Shown: positions 46,650 through 55,012 of the stretch, piece after piece
Layout: every line of letters starts with the position of its first letter
How positions within the stretch are numbered: the stretch's first letter is position 1
Source of the DNA: Chitinophaga arvensicola
Lineage (GTDB): Bacteria > Bacteroidota > Bacteroidia > Chitinophagales > Chitinophagaceae
Reading direction: 5' to 3'
DNA: 64,000 bases
NCBI RefSeq assembly: GCF_900110835.1
Contig: NZ_FOJG01000001.1
Coordinates: forward strand, 1,189,022 to 1,253,021
The notes under the pieces: model-generated
Told to the model about the DNA's origin: nothing
What the model saw: the letters and a program-made list of their open reading frames with translations, nothing else
The model's database searches: none
Position numbers and translations under genes: made by a program

Positions 46650-49058
46650 ATGTGGCAACGTTTAGCAGGCTTTGTGCTAAAATACAGATTATTGCTTCTT
46701 CTTCTTTTGCTCGCCGGTACCGGTGTGATGGGTTATTTTGCCAGTAAGGTACAAATGTCGTACGACTATGTAGCCACCATACCGCATGATAATCCAAAGT
46801 TTCTTGAGTACCAGGATTTTAAGCAGAAATTTGGAGGAGATGGTAATGTACTGATGCTGGCCGTGCAAACGGATAAATTCTTCCAGGCCGACTTTTTCAA
46901 GGACTATGTGCAGCTGAATAAGGACATGAAAAATGTTTTCGCGGTAGAGAACATTATGAGTGTGCCGATGGCGATTAACCTGGTGAAGAACGATAGTACA
47001 CAGAAGCTGGAGGCGAATCTGCTGTTTAAGGGGGATTTGTCGAGCCAGGCTGCGATCGACAGCTTGTCCGGTGTTTTTCAGACCCTCCTGTTTTATAAAG
47101 GCCTGTTATACAATCCAGACACCCATGCTTATCTCATGGCGATCTATGTGAATAAGGATGTATTTAATTCTCCCAAAAGAACAGCGGTGGTGGCGGAAAT
47201 CACCAAACTGGCTACTGCATTCCAGGAAAAACAGCATACGGAAGTACACCTGAGTGGGTTGCCACTTATTCGTACTGCCATGGCCGTTAAGGTGGCAGAT
47301 GAGCTGAAACTCTTCCTGAAAATATCTTTCCTCTTAACCGGTCTGATCTTGTTCCTCTTCTTCCGTTCCTTTGGCGCGGTGCTGATGTCCATGATTGTGG
47401 TGGCTATCGGGGTGATCTGGTCAGTTGGTACTATCGTATTGATGGGGTATAAAATTACTTTGCTGACAGGGCTGATTCCATCGTTGATAGTGGTGATTGG
47501 TATTCCGAACTGTGTATACTTCCTGAGTAAATATCATACGGAATATGCCAAGGATGCCAATAAAACACGGGCGTTGGTGCATATGATCCAGCGCATGGGC
47601 ATTGTAACACTGTTTACCAACCTCACGGCGGCTATTGGTTTCGGTGTTTTCTGTTTTACCAATAGTGCTATCCTGAAAGAGTTTGGAGTAGTAGCAGGAT
47701 TAAATATCATGTTCATCTTCCTGATCTCTTTCATTTTCCTGCCTTCTGTGCTGAGCTATCTGCCGGCGCCTAAGAGCAAGCATACTACTTACCTGGATAA
47801 CCGGTTTTTTGGTGCGATACTCGATTTCCTGACCACGCTGGTGTTTAAGTACCGGCCATGGGTATATGGAGTGAGTCTTGTGCTGGTGATCGGTGCTATT
47901 GTGGGTATGGGACGTTTACAATCTGTCGGGTATATGCTGGATGATATTCCGCATACCGATAAACTATATACGGATCTGAAATTCCTGGAAACAAACTTCA
48001 AGGGTGTAATGCCGCTGGAAATAGCGGTAGATACGAAAAAGAAGAACGGGGTGGTGAACCTGCAAACGCTGAATAAGCTGGATGAGCTGACACAGCTGAT
48101 TGCATCTCAACCGGATTTCGGCAGACCATTGTCGGTAGTAGAAGGAATCAAATTTGCCAAACAGGCTTATTATAACGGCGACAGTTCCAACTTTGCAGTG
48201 CCTAACCAGTTTGATCTGGGTTTCCTGGCGCCTTACCTGCGTATGAAAGGGGGCAATACAGCCGGACCGGCTTCTACCTTCTCCAAGCTGGTATCTTCCT
48301 TTATGGACAGCACCAAGCAGGTAGCAAGGTTAAGTGTGAATATGAAAGATGTGGGATCTCAGAAGCTGCCTTTACTCCTGGATTCATTGCAACCTAAAGT
48401 GACAGCTATATTTGATACGGCGCATTACAAGGTTACTTTTACGGGTACCAGTGTGATTTTCCAGGAGGGAACGCGTTTCATCATCAATGGGTTGATGGAA
48501 AGTATTGTTCTGGCCTTTGTGCTGATTATGCTCTGTATGTTGTACCTGTTCCGTTCCTGGAGGATGCTGATCATATCATTGATTCCGAACGTGATTCCGC
48601 TGGTGGTAACTGCCGGAGTGATGGGCTGGGTAGGCGTTCCCTTGAAGCCGTCTACGGTGTTGGTATTCAGTGTAGCGCTCGGTATAGCCATCGACGTTAC
48701 GATCCGTTTCCTGGTAAACTTCAAGCAGGAGTTACCGCGTCATGATTTTGATATCAGTGCTACGGTGAAGCAAACAATTCATGAAACGGGGCTTAGCATT
48801 ATTTATACGTCTGCTATTCTTTTTGCCGGGTTTATGATTTTCAGCTTTTCAGGTTTTGGTGGTACCAAGGCGCTGGGCTGGCTTACTTCTCTGACCCTGG
48901 TAGTGGCTATGATTACGAATCTCACCATATTACCGGCTTTGCTGTTGTGGATGGAAAAAGCGTTGTTGAAGAAAGCGAAGAAGAAAGAGTTATGGAAGAC
49001 GTTGGACGAGGAGGAAGATATTGACATTGAAAAATTAGGGATCAGCGACAAAGAATAA
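46650..49058 (+). CDS. RND/MMPL family transporter
   Basis: The 802-residue inner-membrane protein has the RND double layout: helix 1 near the N-terminus (YRLLLLLLLLAGTGVMGYF), a large periplasmic loop (about 32-215), helices 2-6 (LFLKISFLLTGLILFLFFR, VLMSMIVVAIGVIWSVGTIVLMG, FGVVAGLNIMFIFLISFIFLP and others), then a second half repeating this arrangement (WVYGVSLVLVIGAIVGMG onward). Asp/Gly-rich segment helices such as ALGIAIDVTIRFLVNF are typical. Such proteins export lipids or other hydrophobic compounds by proton motive force; substrate is unknown. The C-terminus is a short charged cytoplasmic tail. It is a single gene followed by a strong terminator. Confidence 0.9.
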   Translation: MWQRLAGFVLKYRLLLLLLLLAGTGVMGYFASKVQMSYDYVATIPHDNPKFLEYQDFKQKFGGDGNVLMLAVQTDKFFQADFFKDYVQLNKDMKNVFAVENIMSVPMAINLVKNDSTQKLEANLLFKGDLSSQAAIDSLSGVFQTLLFYKGLLYNPDTHAYLMAIYVNKDVFNSPKRTAVVAEITKLATAFQEKQHTEVHLSGLPLIRTAMAVKVADELKLFLKISFLLTGLILFLFFRSFGAVLMSMIVVAIGVIWSVGTIVLMGYKITLLTGLIPSLIVVIGIPNCVYFLSKYHTEYAKDANKTRALVHMIQRMGIVTLFTNLTAAIGFGVFCFTNSAILKEFGVVAGLNIMFIFLISFIFLPSVLSYLPAPKSKHTTYLDNRFFGAILDFLTTLVFKYRPWVYGVSLVLVIGAIVGMGRLQSVGYMLDDIPHTDKLYTDLKFLETNFKGVMPLEIAVDTKKKNGVVNLQTLNKLDELTQLIASQPDFGRPLSVVEGIKFAKQAYYNGDSSNFAVPNQFDLGFLAPYLRMKGGNTAGPASTFSKLVSSFMDSTKQVARLSVNMKDVGSQKLPLLLDSLQPKVTAIFDTAHYKVTFTGTSVIFQEGTRFIINGLMESIVLAFVLIMLCMLYLFRSWRMLIISLIPNVIPLVVTAGVMGWVGVPLKPSTVLVFSVALGIAIDVTIRFLVNFKQELPRHDFDISATVKQTIHETGLSIIYTSAILFAGFMIFSFSGFGGTKALGWLTSLTLVVAMITNLTILPALLLWMEKALLKKAKKKELWKTLDEEEDIDIEKLGISDKE

Positions 49059-49073
49059 TTTACGGTTTTTTAT

Positions 49074-49131
49074 AAAAGCCATCGGGGCAAACAGAAAGAA
49101 GTTACTTTTTGTTTGCCCCGATGGCTTTTTT
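49074..49131 (+). terminator. Terminator of the MMPL gene
   Basis: A long stem (AAAAGCCATCGGGGCAAAC at 49074-49092 with GTTTGCCCCGATGGCTTTT at 49111-49129) is followed by Ts. Confidence 0.9.
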
Positions 49132-49303
49132 ATTGGCTGAAAACCGCAGTGAATGCTAAATATTTAGCTAGAATGGACAAGAAATGAGGCTGAAATAATC
49201 TAGTGGGGAGCATTCACATACCATTATCGCCGTTTGTAAAAAAAGGGGGGATATTATAATTAAAAAGTATGAGGTTTAATACGCCATTCTAACCACATAG
49301 TTC

Positions 49304-49993
49304 ATGAAAAATAAGTACTTAAAGGGCGCTCATTTATCCGAGCGCAAATTTAAGGAGATCCTGCGGCTGTTTGCCGATGATCTTACTGCGACCCAGATAG
49401 CGAATATCAGCGGTGTCAGCAGGGTAACTATTAATAGCTACCTGAAGAAGCTAAGACACCAGATAGCGCGGTTTTGTGAAACGCAGCATCCTGCGCCAGT
49501 TCCCGTATTGACTTACGAAACCAGGCAAAGCGACCTGACCCCGGACCACGACAGCGACACGCTGGTGGCCGTAAAACCGGAAGTAGACCGGATTGTAAAG
49601 CCCGTTATCTTCGGTATCTGCAGATCCTCAGACAGGTTACACACCGAAATTCTCCCAGACGTAAGCCGCTCCATGATTCATGCTGCTACAAGAGGTCGTT
49701 CCGTATTGGAAACCCAGGTAGCTGCGGAACGTTTGCGCCGCTTCAATGGTCTGGTAGATTTAGGTCAGTACCGTTTATACAGGCTGGGGCAAACATCTGA
49801 CTCACATCAGATGGATGATGTAGATGCGTTCTGGGGCTTAACCAAACACCGTTTGGCGAAGTTCAAGGGGCTGAACCGGAATACGGCTTATTTGCACCTG
49901 AAAGAGTGTGAATACCGGTTTAATCATCGTAATGATGATCTCTTTTTGGTATTGCTGGAATTGTTAAAAAATTACCCGCTTACCCTTTCCTGA
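49304..49993 (+). CDS. IS1595/ISXO2-like transposase-derived protein with altered catalytic residues
   Basis: The 229-residue protein begins with a helix-turn-helix (KFKEILRLFADDLTATQIANISGVSRVTINSYLKKLRHQIARF) and ends with WGLTKHRLAKFKGLNRNTAYLHLKECEYRFNHRND, the typical tail of IS1595-type transposases. In aligned memory of ISXO2 the first Asp (ADESYFGG) has become VKPEVDR, the second Asp (TDCW) an AERL and the third acidic residue a Asp in DVDAFW. No zinc ribbon is present and no terminal inverted repeats were found. It is intact yet probably not an active transposase; it may be a domesticated DNA-binding protein or a relic. The alignment is by eye. Confidence 0.65.
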   Translation: MKNKYLKGAHLSERKFKEILRLFADDLTATQIANISGVSRVTINSYLKKLRHQIARFCETQHPAPVPVLTYETRQSDLTPDHDSDTLVAVKPEVDRIVKPVIFGICRSSDRLHTEILPDVSRSMIHAATRGRSVLETQVAAERLRRFNGLVDLGQYRLYRLGQTSDSHQMDDVDAFWGLTKHRLAKFKGLNRNTAYLHLKECEYRFNHRNDDLFLVLLELLKNYPLTLS

Positions 49994-50003
49994 TAAGACA
50001 TTC

Positions 50004-50023
50004 GCCCCGCTTTTATGCGGGGC
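50004..50023 (+). terminator. Hairpin after the transposase-like ORF
   Basis: GCCCCGC (50004-50010) pairs with GCGGGGC (50017-50023) with a T-rich loop; only a short T stretch follows, so it is a moderate terminator. Confidence 0.6.
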
Positions 50024-50062
50024 AACTTTAATCTCGATTTAGATTTTGGTTGATGAGCACAG

Positions 50063-50475: not shown

Positions 50476-53400
50476 ATGCTTATGAGGAAAGTATTATTTC
50501 TCCTCCTGTCCGTGCTATTTCTGGGCGGTCAGGTCTTTGCGCAAAGTCGCACTGTAACAGGGAGAGTCACTGATGCCAAAGATGGCTCGGGCATTCCTGG
50601 TGCCAACATCCAGATTAAAGGCACTTCCAAAGGAACCGTAACGAATCCGGATGGCGCTTACACCATTTCGGTAGATGAAAACGCCACACTGATTTTCTCC
50701 TTTATCGGCTTTGAAGCCAAAGAAGTTCGTGTGGGTCCTGCTACTACATTAAATGTGAAACTGAACACCGATTCCAAGAGTCTGGAAGAAGTAGTAGTAA
50801 CAGGTTACACCGTGGAGAAAAAAGTAAACTCCACCATCGCTGCATCTACTATCAGCGGTGCTAAAATCAACAACGTAGCATTGCCAGACATCAACCAGAT
50901 GTTACAGGGTAACGCTCCAGGTGTAGCAGTATCCACCAACTCCGGTCAGCCTGGTGCGAGAACCGAAGTTCGTATCCGTGGTATCGGTTCCATTTCAGCG
51001 AGCACCAGCCCGTTGTATGTAGTAGATGGTGTGGTAATTTCTTCCGGAGATTTCACCCAGAATACGCCTTCTCAGGATATCCTGGCTAACATGAACCCTG
51101 CGGATATCGAGAACGTAACCATCCTGAAAGATGCGTCTGCTACTGCATTGTATGGTGCACGTGGTTCTAACGGTGTGGTAGTAATCACTACCAAAACCGG
51201 TAAGAAAGGACAGAGCCGTATTAACTTCAATGCCAAGTATGGTTTCCAGAACCTGTCTCATGGCATCGATATGATGAGCTCTACAGAGTTACTGGCTTAT
51301 CAGCGTGAAGCGATGAAGAACGCCACCAACAAAGATGGTTCCCGTACTTTCACGGATGCACAGATCCTGGCTAACCGTCCTGATAACCTGGCCAACATCA
51401 GCACTAACTGGATGGACGAAGCCTTCCGCACTGGTAACACCCAGGCTTACGGTATCAACGCTGGCGGTGGTAGCGACAAAACACAGTTCTATGCTTCCGG
51501 TGATTACTTCAAACAACAGGGTATCCTGATTGGTTCCGGTTTCAGCCGCTACAGTGGCCGTGTAAACGTAGATCACAAATTCAACGACAAGTTCGACCTG
51601 AGCGTGAAAGTAAACGGTTCCTACACCGATCAGAAAAATGCCGGTGAAGGTAACAGCTACTCTTCCCCACTGATGGGTGCATTGGCTAACACTCCGTTTA
51701 TTCCTTCCCGTGATGAGAACGGTGTGCCTTACAATGGTTATACTGCCGGTCAGCCAGGTTCTACTTCCTGGGATCATTTCAGCGGTATCTCCAGCACTTA
51801 CCGTCCTATACTGCGTGGTGGTAACTTCCTGAATACCGTAGCACAGAACTACAAGAGCAACAACAACACACAAACGGTGTTCAATGCAGCGCTCGGATAC
51901 AACATCATCGACGGTTTACGTTTCGTAGTGAAAGGTAATGCTGAGCTGACCAACATCCGCGAAAAGCAATGGACTTCCCCTACTTCTTACGATGGTCGTA
52001 ACTACGGCGGTTACCTGTATAATGTAAACACCAACCTGGCGTTGTACACTACACAGCAATTACTGACGTACAACTTCAATCTCGGAAAAGATCACAGCTT
52101 CCGCTTACTGGCAGGTAATGAATATTCCTTCCAGAACCGTATCTGGAACTATAGTGCAAAGAATGGTTTCCCAACCAATAGCGCACAGGTACCAAGTGCA
52201 GGTTCCCAGTACTTCGATATGGCCGGTAATGAAACATCTTACGCATTCCAGGGGCTGATCGGTAAAGTGGACTACGATTATAAATCTAAATATTTCCTGA
52301 GTGGTAGCTTCAGAAGAGACGGTTCTTCCCGTTTCCCTAAAGACAACCGCTATGGTAACTTCTACTCTGTAGGTGCTGCATGGCGTATTACAGAAGAAGA
52401 ATTTACTAAAAACATTTCCTGGCTGAACGACCTGAAACTGCGTTCCAGCTACGGTATCATGGGTAACGCTGAACTGTTGAACGATTATCCTTACCAATCG
52501 CTGTATAGCCTGGAAGGTGCTTACAACGGTGAATCAGTAGCTTTCCTGAAACAACCGGGTAACCCTGCACTGAGCTGGGAAAAACAAAACCTGTTTGACG
52601 TAGGGCTGGATTTCAGCGTGCTGAAAAGACGTGTATACGGTAGCGTAGGTTACTATGACAAACGTTCTTCTGCGTTGCTGATGCAGTTACCGGTGTCTAT
52701 GACCACTGGTTACGATGTAATGAATATGAACGTCGGCCAGATGCTGAACCAGGGCTTTGAAGTAACGTTGGGCGGTATTCCGGTATCTACCAAAAACTTC
52801 CAGTGGACTTCCGATGTGAACTTTGCTACTCTGCGTAACAGGGTGCTGAACCTCGGCGGACAACAATCTATTCCTGCGGGCAGCCGTCAGAGAATTGAAG
52901 TAGGTATGCCATTCGGTTCCTGGTATATGCCGGTTTGGGCTGGTGTAGATCCTGCTACCGGTGCCGCTACCTGGGAAGGTGCGGATGGTAAACCGACAAC
53001 CGATTATACCAAAGCGGTTAGAAAATATGTTGGTCAGGCACTGCCTAAGATCACCGGCGGTTTCACCAACAAATTCAGCTACAAGAATATTGATCTGACT
53101 GCATTCTTCACTTTCAGTGCAGGTAACAAAGCATACAACTATAACCGTTCCTTCCTGGAAAGCGATGGTAACAACACCACCGGAAACCAGGCCAAAGATG
53201 CAGGTTCACACTGGGAAAAACCAGGTGACATCGCAGACAGACCTAAGGTTATCTGGGGTAATGGTACCAGCTCTAACTCCACTTCTACCCGCTACCTGGA
53301 AGATGTTTCCTACTTCAGGCTCAGAAACCTGACTTTAGGTTACAACCTTCCAAAAGCAACCCTGAACAGATTGAAAATGCAGGGTGTAAGAGTGTACGCA

Positions 53401-53574
53401 CAGGCGGAAAACCTGTTTACACTGACCAGCTACAAAGGATGGGATCCGGATATCAGTACTAACCCTATTTCTCCAACCAGCACTGCTTCTCCTGCTACAA
53501 CTAACGCGGGTGTTGACTTCTACCGTTATCCAACTTCAAGGGTAATTACGTTTGGTATCAGTGTAGGCTTGTAA
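50476..53574 (+). CDS. SusC/RagA family TonB-linked outer membrane protein (first pair)
   Basis: The 1032-residue TonB-dependent transporter has a signal peptide (MLMRKVLFLLLSVLFLGGQVFAQ), a carboxypeptidase-regulatory-like domain (about 25-110: VTGRVTDAKDGSGIPGANIQIKG), a plug domain (LPDINQMLQGNAPGV, RIRGIGSISASTSPLYVVDG, ASATALYGARGSNGVVVITTKTG) and a 22-strand barrel ending in ...GFISVGL-type YPTSRVITFGISVGL. SusC pairs with SusD to import large nutrients. No glycoside hydrolase or dedicated regulator is nearby, so the substrate is unknown. SusD follows 31 bases after the stop. Confidence 0.95.
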   Translation: MLMRKVLFLLLSVLFLGGQVFAQSRTVTGRVTDAKDGSGIPGANIQIKGTSKGTVTNPDGAYTISVDENATLIFSFIGFEAKEVRVGPATTLNVKLNTDSKSLEEVVVTGYTVEKKVNSTIAASTISGAKINNVALPDINQMLQGNAPGVAVSTNSGQPGARTEVRIRGIGSISASTSPLYVVDGVVISSGDFTQNTPSQDILANMNPADIENVTILKDASATALYGARGSNGVVVITTKTGKKGQSRINFNAKYGFQNLSHGIDMMSSTELLAYQREAMKNATNKDGSRTFTDAQILANRPDNLANISTNWMDEAFRTGNTQAYGINAGGGSDKTQFYASGDYFKQQGILIGSGFSRYSGRVNVDHKFNDKFDLSVKVNGSYTDQKNAGEGNSYSSPLMGALANTPFIPSRDENGVPYNGYTAGQPGSTSWDHFSGISSTYRPILRGGNFLNTVAQNYKSNNNTQTVFNAALGYNIIDGLRFVVKGNAELTNIREKQWTSPTSYDGRNYGGYLYNVNTNLALYTTQQLLTYNFNLGKDHSFRLLAGNEYSFQNRIWNYSAKNGFPTNSAQVPSAGSQYFDMAGNETSYAFQGLIGKVDYDYKSKYFLSGSFRRDGSSRFPKDNRYGNFYSVGAAWRITEEEFTKNISWLNDLKLRSSYGIMGNAELLNDYPYQSLYSLEGAYNGESVAFLKQPGNPALSWEKQNLFDVGLDFSVLKRRVYGSVGYYDKRSSALLMQLPVSMTTGYDVMNMNVGQMLNQGFEVTLGGIPVSTKNFQWTSDVNFATLRNRVLNLGGQQSIPAGSRQRIEVGMPFGSWYMPVWAGVDPATGAATWEGADGKPTTDYTKAVRKYVGQALPKITGGFTNKFSYKNIDLTAFFTFSAGNKAYNYNRSFLESDGNNTTGNQAKDAGSHWEKPGDIADRPKVIWGNGTSSNSTSTRYLEDVSYFRLRNLTLGYNLPKATLNRLKMQGVRVYAQAENLFTLTSYKGWDPDISTNPISPTSTASPATTNAGVDFYRYPTSRVITFGISVGL

Positions 53575-53605
53575 AATGAGGTATAACAAAAATTCTAGTT
53601 TAATT

Positions 53606-55012
53606 ATGAAATACACAAAACTCTCCATATTAGCACTGGCTTCGGCTGGTCTGTTTTCAGCCTGCAGCAAGCTGGATCAGGATCCGCAGTTATCATTGAG
53701 TGATCAGGTGGCAGTAACGGAAGACAATGCGCGCATACTCGCCAACGGTATGTATGAGCGTATGCAGACGCTGGAATATTACGGTCGTGACTTCCTGATA
53801 GTATCTGATCTGGGTGGAATTGATATGAAAATCACTTCCCAGAACTCCAACAGGTTTACCACCGAGTTCCAGATGAACTATACACCGCTGGTAGCACCAC
53901 AAACCAATACGTTTTTGAATGCGTACCGGGTAGTGAACCAGGCGAACGTACTGATCGTGAAAATGCCGGAAACGGCTAAAACATCTACCATCCGTGGTGA
54001 AGCTTACTTCCTGCGTGCATTGGCAGAACTGGACCTGGCAAAAAGATACACCAGACCATATACCAACGTAGACGCCAAAGTAACTTCCCCTAATACGGGC
54101 ATTACCTTGGTAACTACTACTCCCGATGCACCAGCTACTGCTAAACCAGGCCGTAGCACATTGGAAGAAACATATACCGCTATCATCAACGACCTGAAAG
54201 TAGCACAGCAAACAGCTCCGGATGCAAAACCTAACACTGCAGCTGTTTTTAAAGCATCTAAAGATGCAGCTACTGCGCTTTTAACCCGTGTTTACGTGTA
54301 CAAAGGTCAATGGCAACTGGCTATTGATGAAGCAACTAAACTGATCGGCAAATATCCGCTGTACGAACCAGCTCTAGTAGCAGGTGCGTTCAACAAAGAT
54401 GAAGCTGGTTCTGAAGAAATCTTCTCCCTGCGTTTCCTCACGCCTGATGGCGCTGGCTCCAATAACTTCGGTTATCTGTATGTACCGGCTTCTAAAGGTG
54501 GTTATGGCGACGTAAGACTGACAGACGAATTCATGGGCTTACTGGATCCGAAAGATGTGCGTCTGGGTTATACCCTTAACCTGGATGGCAGTAATTACCT
54601 GATGAAGTTCTCCGGTAACCCGGCTACTGGCCAGGTTGGTCTGGTAAACGTGAAAATTGCACGTATCAGTGAAGTATTGCTGAACCGCGCAGAAGCTTAT
54701 GCTGAACTGGGTAACCTGCAGAAAGCGACAGACGATATCAACCTGCTGAGAGCAAAACGTGGACTGGATCCGTTTACCGATGTAGCTAAAGTAAAAGCAG
54801 AGATTGTAAAACAGAGAAGACTGGAACTGGTAGGTGAAGGTTTTGGTATGACCGATCTGTATCGCAAAAATGGCACCCGTAACATTACTGATGCCAATGC
54901 TTTGAGCACAAGAAAAACAGAACCTAATGATATCCGCGTAGCGTACCCGATTCCGCAGGCAGAAATGGATGCCAATCCAAATATGGTGCAGAATCCTGGA
55001 TATTCTAACTAA
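53606..55012 (+). CDS. SusD/RagB family nutrient-binding lipoprotein (first pair)
   Basis: The 468-residue lipoprotein has a lipobox (GLFSAC, Cys20), a Cys followed by Ser-Lys, then SusD features: AYRVVNQANVLIVKM, GEAYFLRALAELDLAKRYT, an alpha-helical TPR-like scaffold and a C-terminal LLNRAEAYAELGNLQKATDDINLLRAKRGL block with VKQRRLELVGEGFGMTDLYR. It binds the ligand at the cell surface and caps the SusC barrel. A start at 53606 gives a standard lipoprotein signal, while the frame from 53576 adds ten polar residues. It ends in a terminator. Confidence 0.94.
   Translation: MKYTKLSILALASAGLFSACSKLDQDPQLSLSDQVAVTEDNARILANGMYERMQTLEYYGRDFLIVSDLGGIDMKITSQNSNRFTTEFQMNYTPLVAPQTNTFLNAYRVVNQANVLIVKMPETAKTSTIRGEAYFLRALAELDLAKRYTRPYTNVDAKVTSPNTGITLVTTTPDAPATAKPGRSTLEETYTAIINDLKVAQQTAPDAKPNTAAVFKASKDAATALLTRVYVYKGQWQLAIDEATKLIGKYPLYEPALVAGAFNKDEAGSEEIFSLRFLTPDGAGSNNFGYLYVPASKGGYGDVRLTDEFMGLLDPKDVRLGYTLNLDGSNYLMKFSGNPATGQVGLVNVKIARISEVLLNRAEAYAELGNLQKATDDINLLRAKRGLDPFTDVAKVKAEIVKQRRLELVGEGFGMTDLYRKNGTRNITDANALSTRKTEPNDIRVAYPIPQAEMDANPNMVQNPGYSN

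Follow-up and report, generated by a model that had tools for sequence, protein, structure and literature searches.

A gene of apparent IS1595 transposase descent is retained across Chitinophaga, usually beside an RNA-like hairpin element and SusCD genes

The locus in Chitinophaga arvensicola

The window, by which we mean the whole stretch of 64,000 nucleotides analysed here (assembly GCF_900110835.1, contig NZ_FOJG01000001.1, positions 1,189,022 to 1,253,021 of the forward strand), contains a gene for a 229-residue protein that lies between a transporter gene and a pair of SusC- and SusD-like genes, together with several non-coding features (Table 1). The frame starts with ATG; that it is uninterrupted had already been described in a first-pass annotation made from the sequence alone. 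Behind the transporter gene there is a strong hairpin (49071-49132), which is likely its terminator.

Table 1. Features of the locus, in positions of the window
Feature	Positions	Strand	Basis and remarks
MMPL-family transporter gene	46650..49058	+	Pfam MMPL; conserved upstream neighbour in Chitinophaga (38/38 loci)
Conserved non-coding block before the gene start	49192..49303	+	From near AATCTAGTGG at 49197; promoter, leader or operator
Gene of the domesticated, IS1595-derived protein, 229 aa	49304..49993	+	Profile search, conservation, dN/dS, model, triad alignment
Layout of the protein (residues): HTH about 10-61; disordered linker 67-97; RNase-H-like core remnant and C-terminal helices 99-229			
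GC hairpin between stop codon and RNA element	50004..50023	+	Read from sequence; possibly terminates the gene weakly
21-nt conserved segment GATTTAGATTTTGGTTGATGA, candidate small-RNA seed	50036..50056	+	Exact in 31/39 Chitinophaga loci
Terminator-like hairpin of 10 pairs behind the 21-nt segment	50059..50082	+	Covariation on alignment A2
SusC-like TonB-dependent receptor gene, downstream neighbour	50476..53574	+	Pfam Plug and CarbopepD_reg_2
SusD-like gene	53576..55012	+	Pfam SusD_RagB

Fold and catalytic site of the protein

The IS1595-type C-terminus of the protein is recognised by the NCBIfam model NF033547 with 52.4 bits (E = 6e-14), which is below the family cut-off of 75, and in a six-frame search the gene scores 35.2 bits against the same model. 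The Pfam family DDE_Tnp_IS1595 reaches only E = 0.019, and the N-terminal HTH matches several Pfam HTH families, each below its cut-off. Both parts that had led the first-pass annotation to IS1595, the tail and the HTH, are recovered. The closest named protein records are from Chitinophaga, at 95-97% protein identity. The structural model has a mean pLDDT of 80.4, and a Foldseek search of it against the PDB gave zero matches at E-values up to 0.001. By structure comparison the modelled HTH is similar to those of LuxR/NarL regulators, and fold matches at Z scores of 4-5 may reflect a common arrangement alone. The model also has a weak match to the avian sarcoma virus integrase core (1asu, Z 3.9 over 94 residues), which begins at chain residue 72, and we take the first catalytic aspartate of this integrase to precede the point where the match begins.

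The catalytic triad had been read as K, E and D in place of D, D and E. It is indeed altered, but this reading needs correcting: all ten intact short relatives of the IS1595 type, which come from Acidobacteriota, Dyella and an Oscillospiraceae MAG, carry D-D-N and not D-D-E, so that the expected third residue is N, and the residues aligning to these columns are E72, E142 and D171. The alignment with the relatives, in which an intact triad might have come to light elsewhere, shows that the triad is not intact. Across 30 Chitinophaga sequences the first catalytic column is scattered over seven residues (D 6, A 6, E 5, Y 5, T 3, V 3, Q 2), and residues 67-97, E72 included, are modelled with a pLDDT under 50 and without the strand. 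The second column stays acidic in the genus (E 25, D 5) and so does the third (D 26, E 4). In ten other Chitinophagaceae proteins the second column is mostly non-acidic (H 5, Y 3, S 1, D 1) and the third reads D. Because the E72 column is scattered and disordered, and because the E142 and D171 columns differ from D and N, the first catalytic position has clearly disappeared and the other two carry substitutions. The comparison shows that the segment with the first catalytic aspartate and its strand has been replaced by the disordered linker. This does not establish the loss of every metal ligand, since the second and third columns remain acidic in Chitinophaga. We regard it as very likely that the protein is incapable of catalysing transposition.

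The zinc ribbon is absent, as had been noted, but it should not be counted as lost. Three intact short relatives (L082, L085 and L086, with 226, 222 and 221 residues; L and G numbers are our handles for loci and genomes) also do without it, and their alignment to the family model begins at residues 6-10. Therefore, the ribbon was not lost in the lineage of the 229-residue protein. A single-sequence model of L086 had a pLDDT of 34 and was set aside.

Descent and immobility

Judged by its sequence, the protein is a descendant of a short, zinc-ribbon-free IS1595 transposase. In the tree, the Chitinophagaceae proteins and the short IS copies form one clade, and the long IS1595 type stands apart. 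The short relatives (L082, L085-L093) can be aligned to the protein over its full length with 33-38% identity and have the N-terminal HTH and the IS1595 C-terminal helices (NF033547) in common with it. Three of the short transposases score 161-194 bits, above the cut-off that the 229-residue protein does not reach, and whereas D-D-N is found in ten of ten of them, the first D is missing here. A clear terminal inverted repeat pair, such as GGCTCTAGAGTAGCAAAGC, is present in 13 of the 14 relatives scanned (none in L089), and in eleven relatives with such repeats the element length is 697-751 bp. By contrast, the best pair flanking 49304-49993 was equalled or exceeded in 10 of 60 shuffles, whereas none of 60 did so for any of the four IS copies used as controls, which agrees with the first-pass annotation having seen no terminal repeats. 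The gene is present as a single copy in its 8.3-Mb genome, the sole other match having E = 0.12; many identical copies with inverted repeats, which would have spoken for a live element, were thus looked for, and neither further copies nor flanking repeats were found. Of the IS1595 traits tested only common descent is left to the protein, as it falls below the family cut-off and shows no D-D-N triad, no terminal repeats and no multiple or mobile copies. The gene is almost certainly domesticated and immobile and is no longer part of an insertion sequence.

Long IS1595 transposases above the cut-off occur besides the domesticated gene in 11 of the 79 sampled genomes of the genus (L137-L147). CxxC pairs are present in seven of the eight long-type sequences viewed, the eighth (L138) having been taken from a later start.

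Distribution, gene order and selection

The gene is matched in all 79 genomes of the genus that were sampled, 77 of them with one unbroken match without stops; in G026 the match is split into two pieces, and in G064, which is 65% complete, it contains two stops. In the family sample it is matched, in some cases partially, in 45 of 294 genomes belonging to 16 of 101 genera including Chitinophaga, so that outside Chitinophaga, where 15 further genera have it, its distribution is patchy. In each of the 38 loci L032-L069 it is preceded by the same MMPL gene; two of these loci are recorded under genus names other than Chitinophaga. Other Chitinophagaceae have a different upstream block in eight of ten loci, with partial blocks in L071, whose contig starts there, and in L083; from their sequences we take the genes of this block to be prs, rplY, pth, a FAH-family gene and a dehydrogenase gene. 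Given these two conserved neighbourhoods, the place of the gene is stable within each clade.

Downstream of the gene, an open reading frame of at least 600 residues begins within 900 nt in 37 of the 38 loci and was identified by searches as SusC-like. The reported proximity to SusCD genes is therefore true and recurrent. In the other genera a SusC gene is next in four of ten loci (L070-L073, L075, L076, L079-L081, L083).

The median dN/dS (NG86) is 0.065 for the 168 of 741 pairs with dS of 0.1-1.5, the 573 pairs outside this range having been left out. The regional values are 0.037 (HTH), 0.23 (linker), 0.063 (residues 99-145) and 0.032 (C-terminal part). The comparison shows that the protein is maintained by purifying selection. 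The first-pass annotation had suspected selection for another role and had proposed dN/dS across relatives and orthologues at the same place as checks; the median of 0.065, the MMPL neighbour in 38 of 38 loci and the presence in 79 of 79 genomes strongly support it.

The conserved block upstream of the gene

At least 90% identity is found at 59 of the last 120 columns before the start codon in 39 Chitinophaga loci, and at 32 of the last 40, compared with 21 of 215 third codon positions in the same loci. This block, which is unique in its genome, is by its conservation selected non-coding DNA, in which a promoter, a leader and an operator are indistinguishable. A relic of the terminal inverted repeat serving as operator was considered, as the start of the block, AATCTAGTGGnnAGCA, resembled the ends of the relatives by eye, and was rejected because the weight matrix did not support it: with the ungapped matrix of 11 relatives, the score of 51 of the 52 upstream regions was reached by more than 5 of 100 shuffles, and the sole exception (L052) has its match at -198, outside the block. 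A search for a regulon through the upstream pattern gave three genomic matches including the block itself, against three control matches. Palindromes near the start were mostly not significant in 19 representatives, the best (L048) being reached by 6 of 200 shuffles.

The RNA-like element behind the gene

The 21-nt segment, or its GATAA form, is present with at most one mismatch in all 79 genomes of the genus, and the control matched in none. For the covariation analysis (alignment A2) the 31 Chitinophaga loci with the exact 21-mer were chosen, 27 of them distinct, and the 8 of 39 loci without it were excluded. Within this alignment the pairing of the stem is kept in every cell with letters. 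Two-sided changes number 17, compared with 6.1 in shuffles, of which none in 500 reaches that number; kinship inflates this kind of count, and the stem pairs with a two-sided change number 5 as against 3.4 (58 of 500 as high). The Rfam release searched, which may lack FopS, gave no relevant match to the element. Its matches were sub-threshold only, mostly to eukaryotic miRNA models on the terminator of the MMPL gene, and are due to chance.

A second copy of GATTTAGATTTTGGTTGATGA is found elsewhere in the same genome (locus L171, G000:C3:1808128-1808148, minus strand), where it has an extended 5' part and a covarying hairpin of its own and lies upstream of a gene that is presumably yqgE-like. 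The extended form occurs in 16 of 24 loci read.

Other genera have a counterpart, AGTTGCGGTAATAGAATTTTTCTCATGTGACTC followed by a hairpin within 900 nt behind the gene, in 22 of 34 loci when 4 mismatches in 21 are allowed, compared with 0 of 34 upstream of the gene and 0 of 34 with the reversed sequence. Its core TTTTCTCATGT is present in 21 of the 24 distinct loci of other genera; this count omits 10 loci with duplicate downstream sequence, and alignment A3 omits L130 and L135, which have unlike hairpins. In three loci (L070, L071, L079) two copies of the element lie behind the gene, about 40 and about 330 nt past the stop. Searching whole genomes, 65 of the 294 family genomes match the counterpart with at most three mismatches, but many of these matches are probably due to chance because the control also produces matches. 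An exact match is present in 13 genomes, all of which belong to the 45 that bear the gene. In G132, a genome outside those 45, the element lies close to a SusC-like gene (locus L181), and it is therefore not strictly tied to the transposase-derived gene.

Possible SusC targets and comparison with FopS

Thirteen non-self sites (L218-L229, L231) were picked from 11 genomes of other genera, favouring good matches; at all 13 the complement of the segment covers the ATG of a reading frame starting with MRK, with one or two mismatches in 21. Three of three such frames checked by Pfam encode TonB plug proteins, and several of the sites lie on the opposite strand at a distance of about 12-20 kb from the gene. 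Out of a further 20 loci (L174-L193) seven were translated, the others being viewed as DNA only; five of the seven have SusC-like starts, one (L187) does not, and one (L181) is the RNA element itself. In the C. arvensicola genome, 29 matches at up to 2 mismatches in 15 compare with 29 control matches, and two of the 29 are the RNA genes themselves. Starts of reading frames lie near 5 of the 27 remaining matches and near 6 of the 29 reversed controls, and SusC-like ones, judged by eye, number 4 and 1. Targets in the own genome are not supported, matches being no more frequent than those of the control.

The FopS small RNAs of Bacteroides thetaiotaomicron act on the start regions of susC genes, and the RNA-binding protein RbpB works together with them (PMC11697453). 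The element in the window has the same layout, with a conserved segment on the 5' side and a terminator hairpin behind it, and at the sites chosen in other Chitinophagaceae its segment is likewise complementary to SusC start regions. It differs from FopS in having another sequence, in adjoining a gene derived from a transposase and in having no supported targets in its own genome. In the sister genera the element looks like a SusC-silencing small RNA.

Function of the protein

A role as regulator is probable because the protein is under strong selection across the genus even though its cutting site is partly lost and the DNA ends of the element are gone, usually beside the RNA element and a sugar-uptake gene. 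The best overall explanation, which we favour with some reserve, would be an IS1595-derived, domesticated DNA-binding regulator that may well control its own synthesis and possibly governs the RNA/SusCD unit. The DNA binding proposed by the first-pass annotation is likely in view of the low dN/dS of the HTH and its likeness to LuxR/NarL regulators; an operator was not revealed by the searches described above. That the protein is a sequence-specific DNA-binding regulator is the part of the explanation in which we have the most, if still measured, confidence. On this explanation an immobile, very probably catalytically dead IS1595 descendant is kept as a host gene in Chitinophaga and part of the family, and would bind, most likely as a dimer, the block just upstream of its own start. 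Such autoregulation, which is quite conceivable although we would not count on it, would set the output of its own mRNA. Control over the adjoining unit, meaning the downstream hairpin element and possibly the SusCD operon, would come about in that way and is more doubtful. The RNA element is linked to the gene in two different upstream neighbourhoods, and this supports the explanation.

The main rival, which we consider unlikely but worth keeping in mind, is a DNA-binding regulator or a nucleoid-type protein with targets elsewhere, to which the RNA element and the SusCD genes would be incidental neighbours. The bodies of the downstream SusC genes do vary between species, SusC is the next gene in only four of ten loci of other genera, the exact 21-mer is missing beside the gene in 8 of 39 Chitinophaga loci, and G132 has the element without a detected gene. 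Yet mere neighbourhood does not easily account for the element lying beside the gene in 31 of 39 and in 21 of 24 loci while both controls, upstream and reversed, gave 0 of 34. An RNA-binding partner of the adjoining small RNA would fit this linkage, and it has a precedent in RbpB and FopS (PMC11697453). However, no RNA-binding domain was found and the recognised domain is the HTH, which makes such a partner improbable.

The SusC gene at 50476-53574 and its counterparts (L032, L034, L047-L051, L069) keep their first 30 residues, and their bodies differ by species. Identity falls from 97% in the N-terminus to 44% in the body in L032 and L034, from 80% to 45% in L047 and from 70% to 29% in L069, compared with 97% and 88% in L033. 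The protein might be a DNA-structural or recombination accessory factor that aids the exchange of SusC cassettes behind a conserved leader and N-terminus, but homologous recombination can explain the exchange by itself and the catalytic segment is lost, so that we hold such a factor to be very improbable. That the protein remains an active transposase, or belongs to an IS remnant in decay, is hardly credible despite its descent and the two catalytic columns that are acidic in Chitinophaga, given a single copy at a fixed place without detected terminal repeats, a dN/dS of 0.065 and its presence in 79 of 79 genomes.

Returning to the DNA-binding regulator, the protein and the FopS-like RNA might even form one module for SusCD, in which the protein sets or releases an RNA blocking SusC starts. 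Such a module is decidedly unlikely. If it existed, a dead DDE transposase would have given rise to a two-part locus of protein and RNA, which would be the DDE-transposase counterpart to exapted TnpB regulators. RAYTs, which derive from Y1/HUH transposases, and TldRs, which derive from TnpB, are transposon-derived proteins retained by their hosts like the 229-residue protein, which instead stems from the DDE-type IS1595. To our knowledge, domesticated DDE transposases that are fixed throughout a bacterial genus have seldom been described, and we found no paper on the protein or the RNA element in Chitinophaga in the open-licence PMC literature. Automatic annotation would probably overlook the gene, labelling it as a transposase or as a hypothetical protein. 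The linkage of the gene to the RNA element bears on the way in which glycan transporters are selected for expression in these bacteria.

Relatives in Campylobacterota

Three relatives from Campylobacterota (L074, L077, L078) have an altered triad and adjoin a gene that we take to be aroE-like; L074 is above the IS1595 cut-off with 95 bits. The first tree joins them with the Chitinophagaceae proteins with a support of 99/97. When the intact relative L293 is added they fall between the groups, and a tree constrained to group them with L293 is rejected (p = 0.02, with a long-branch warning). They may or may not share one domestication with the Chitinophagaceae proteins. The taxonomic family sampled here has mostly fragments, in 15 of 120 genomes, and one genome (G373) contains 11 short pieces of the C-terminal end, which look like what is left of an element that was formerly active.
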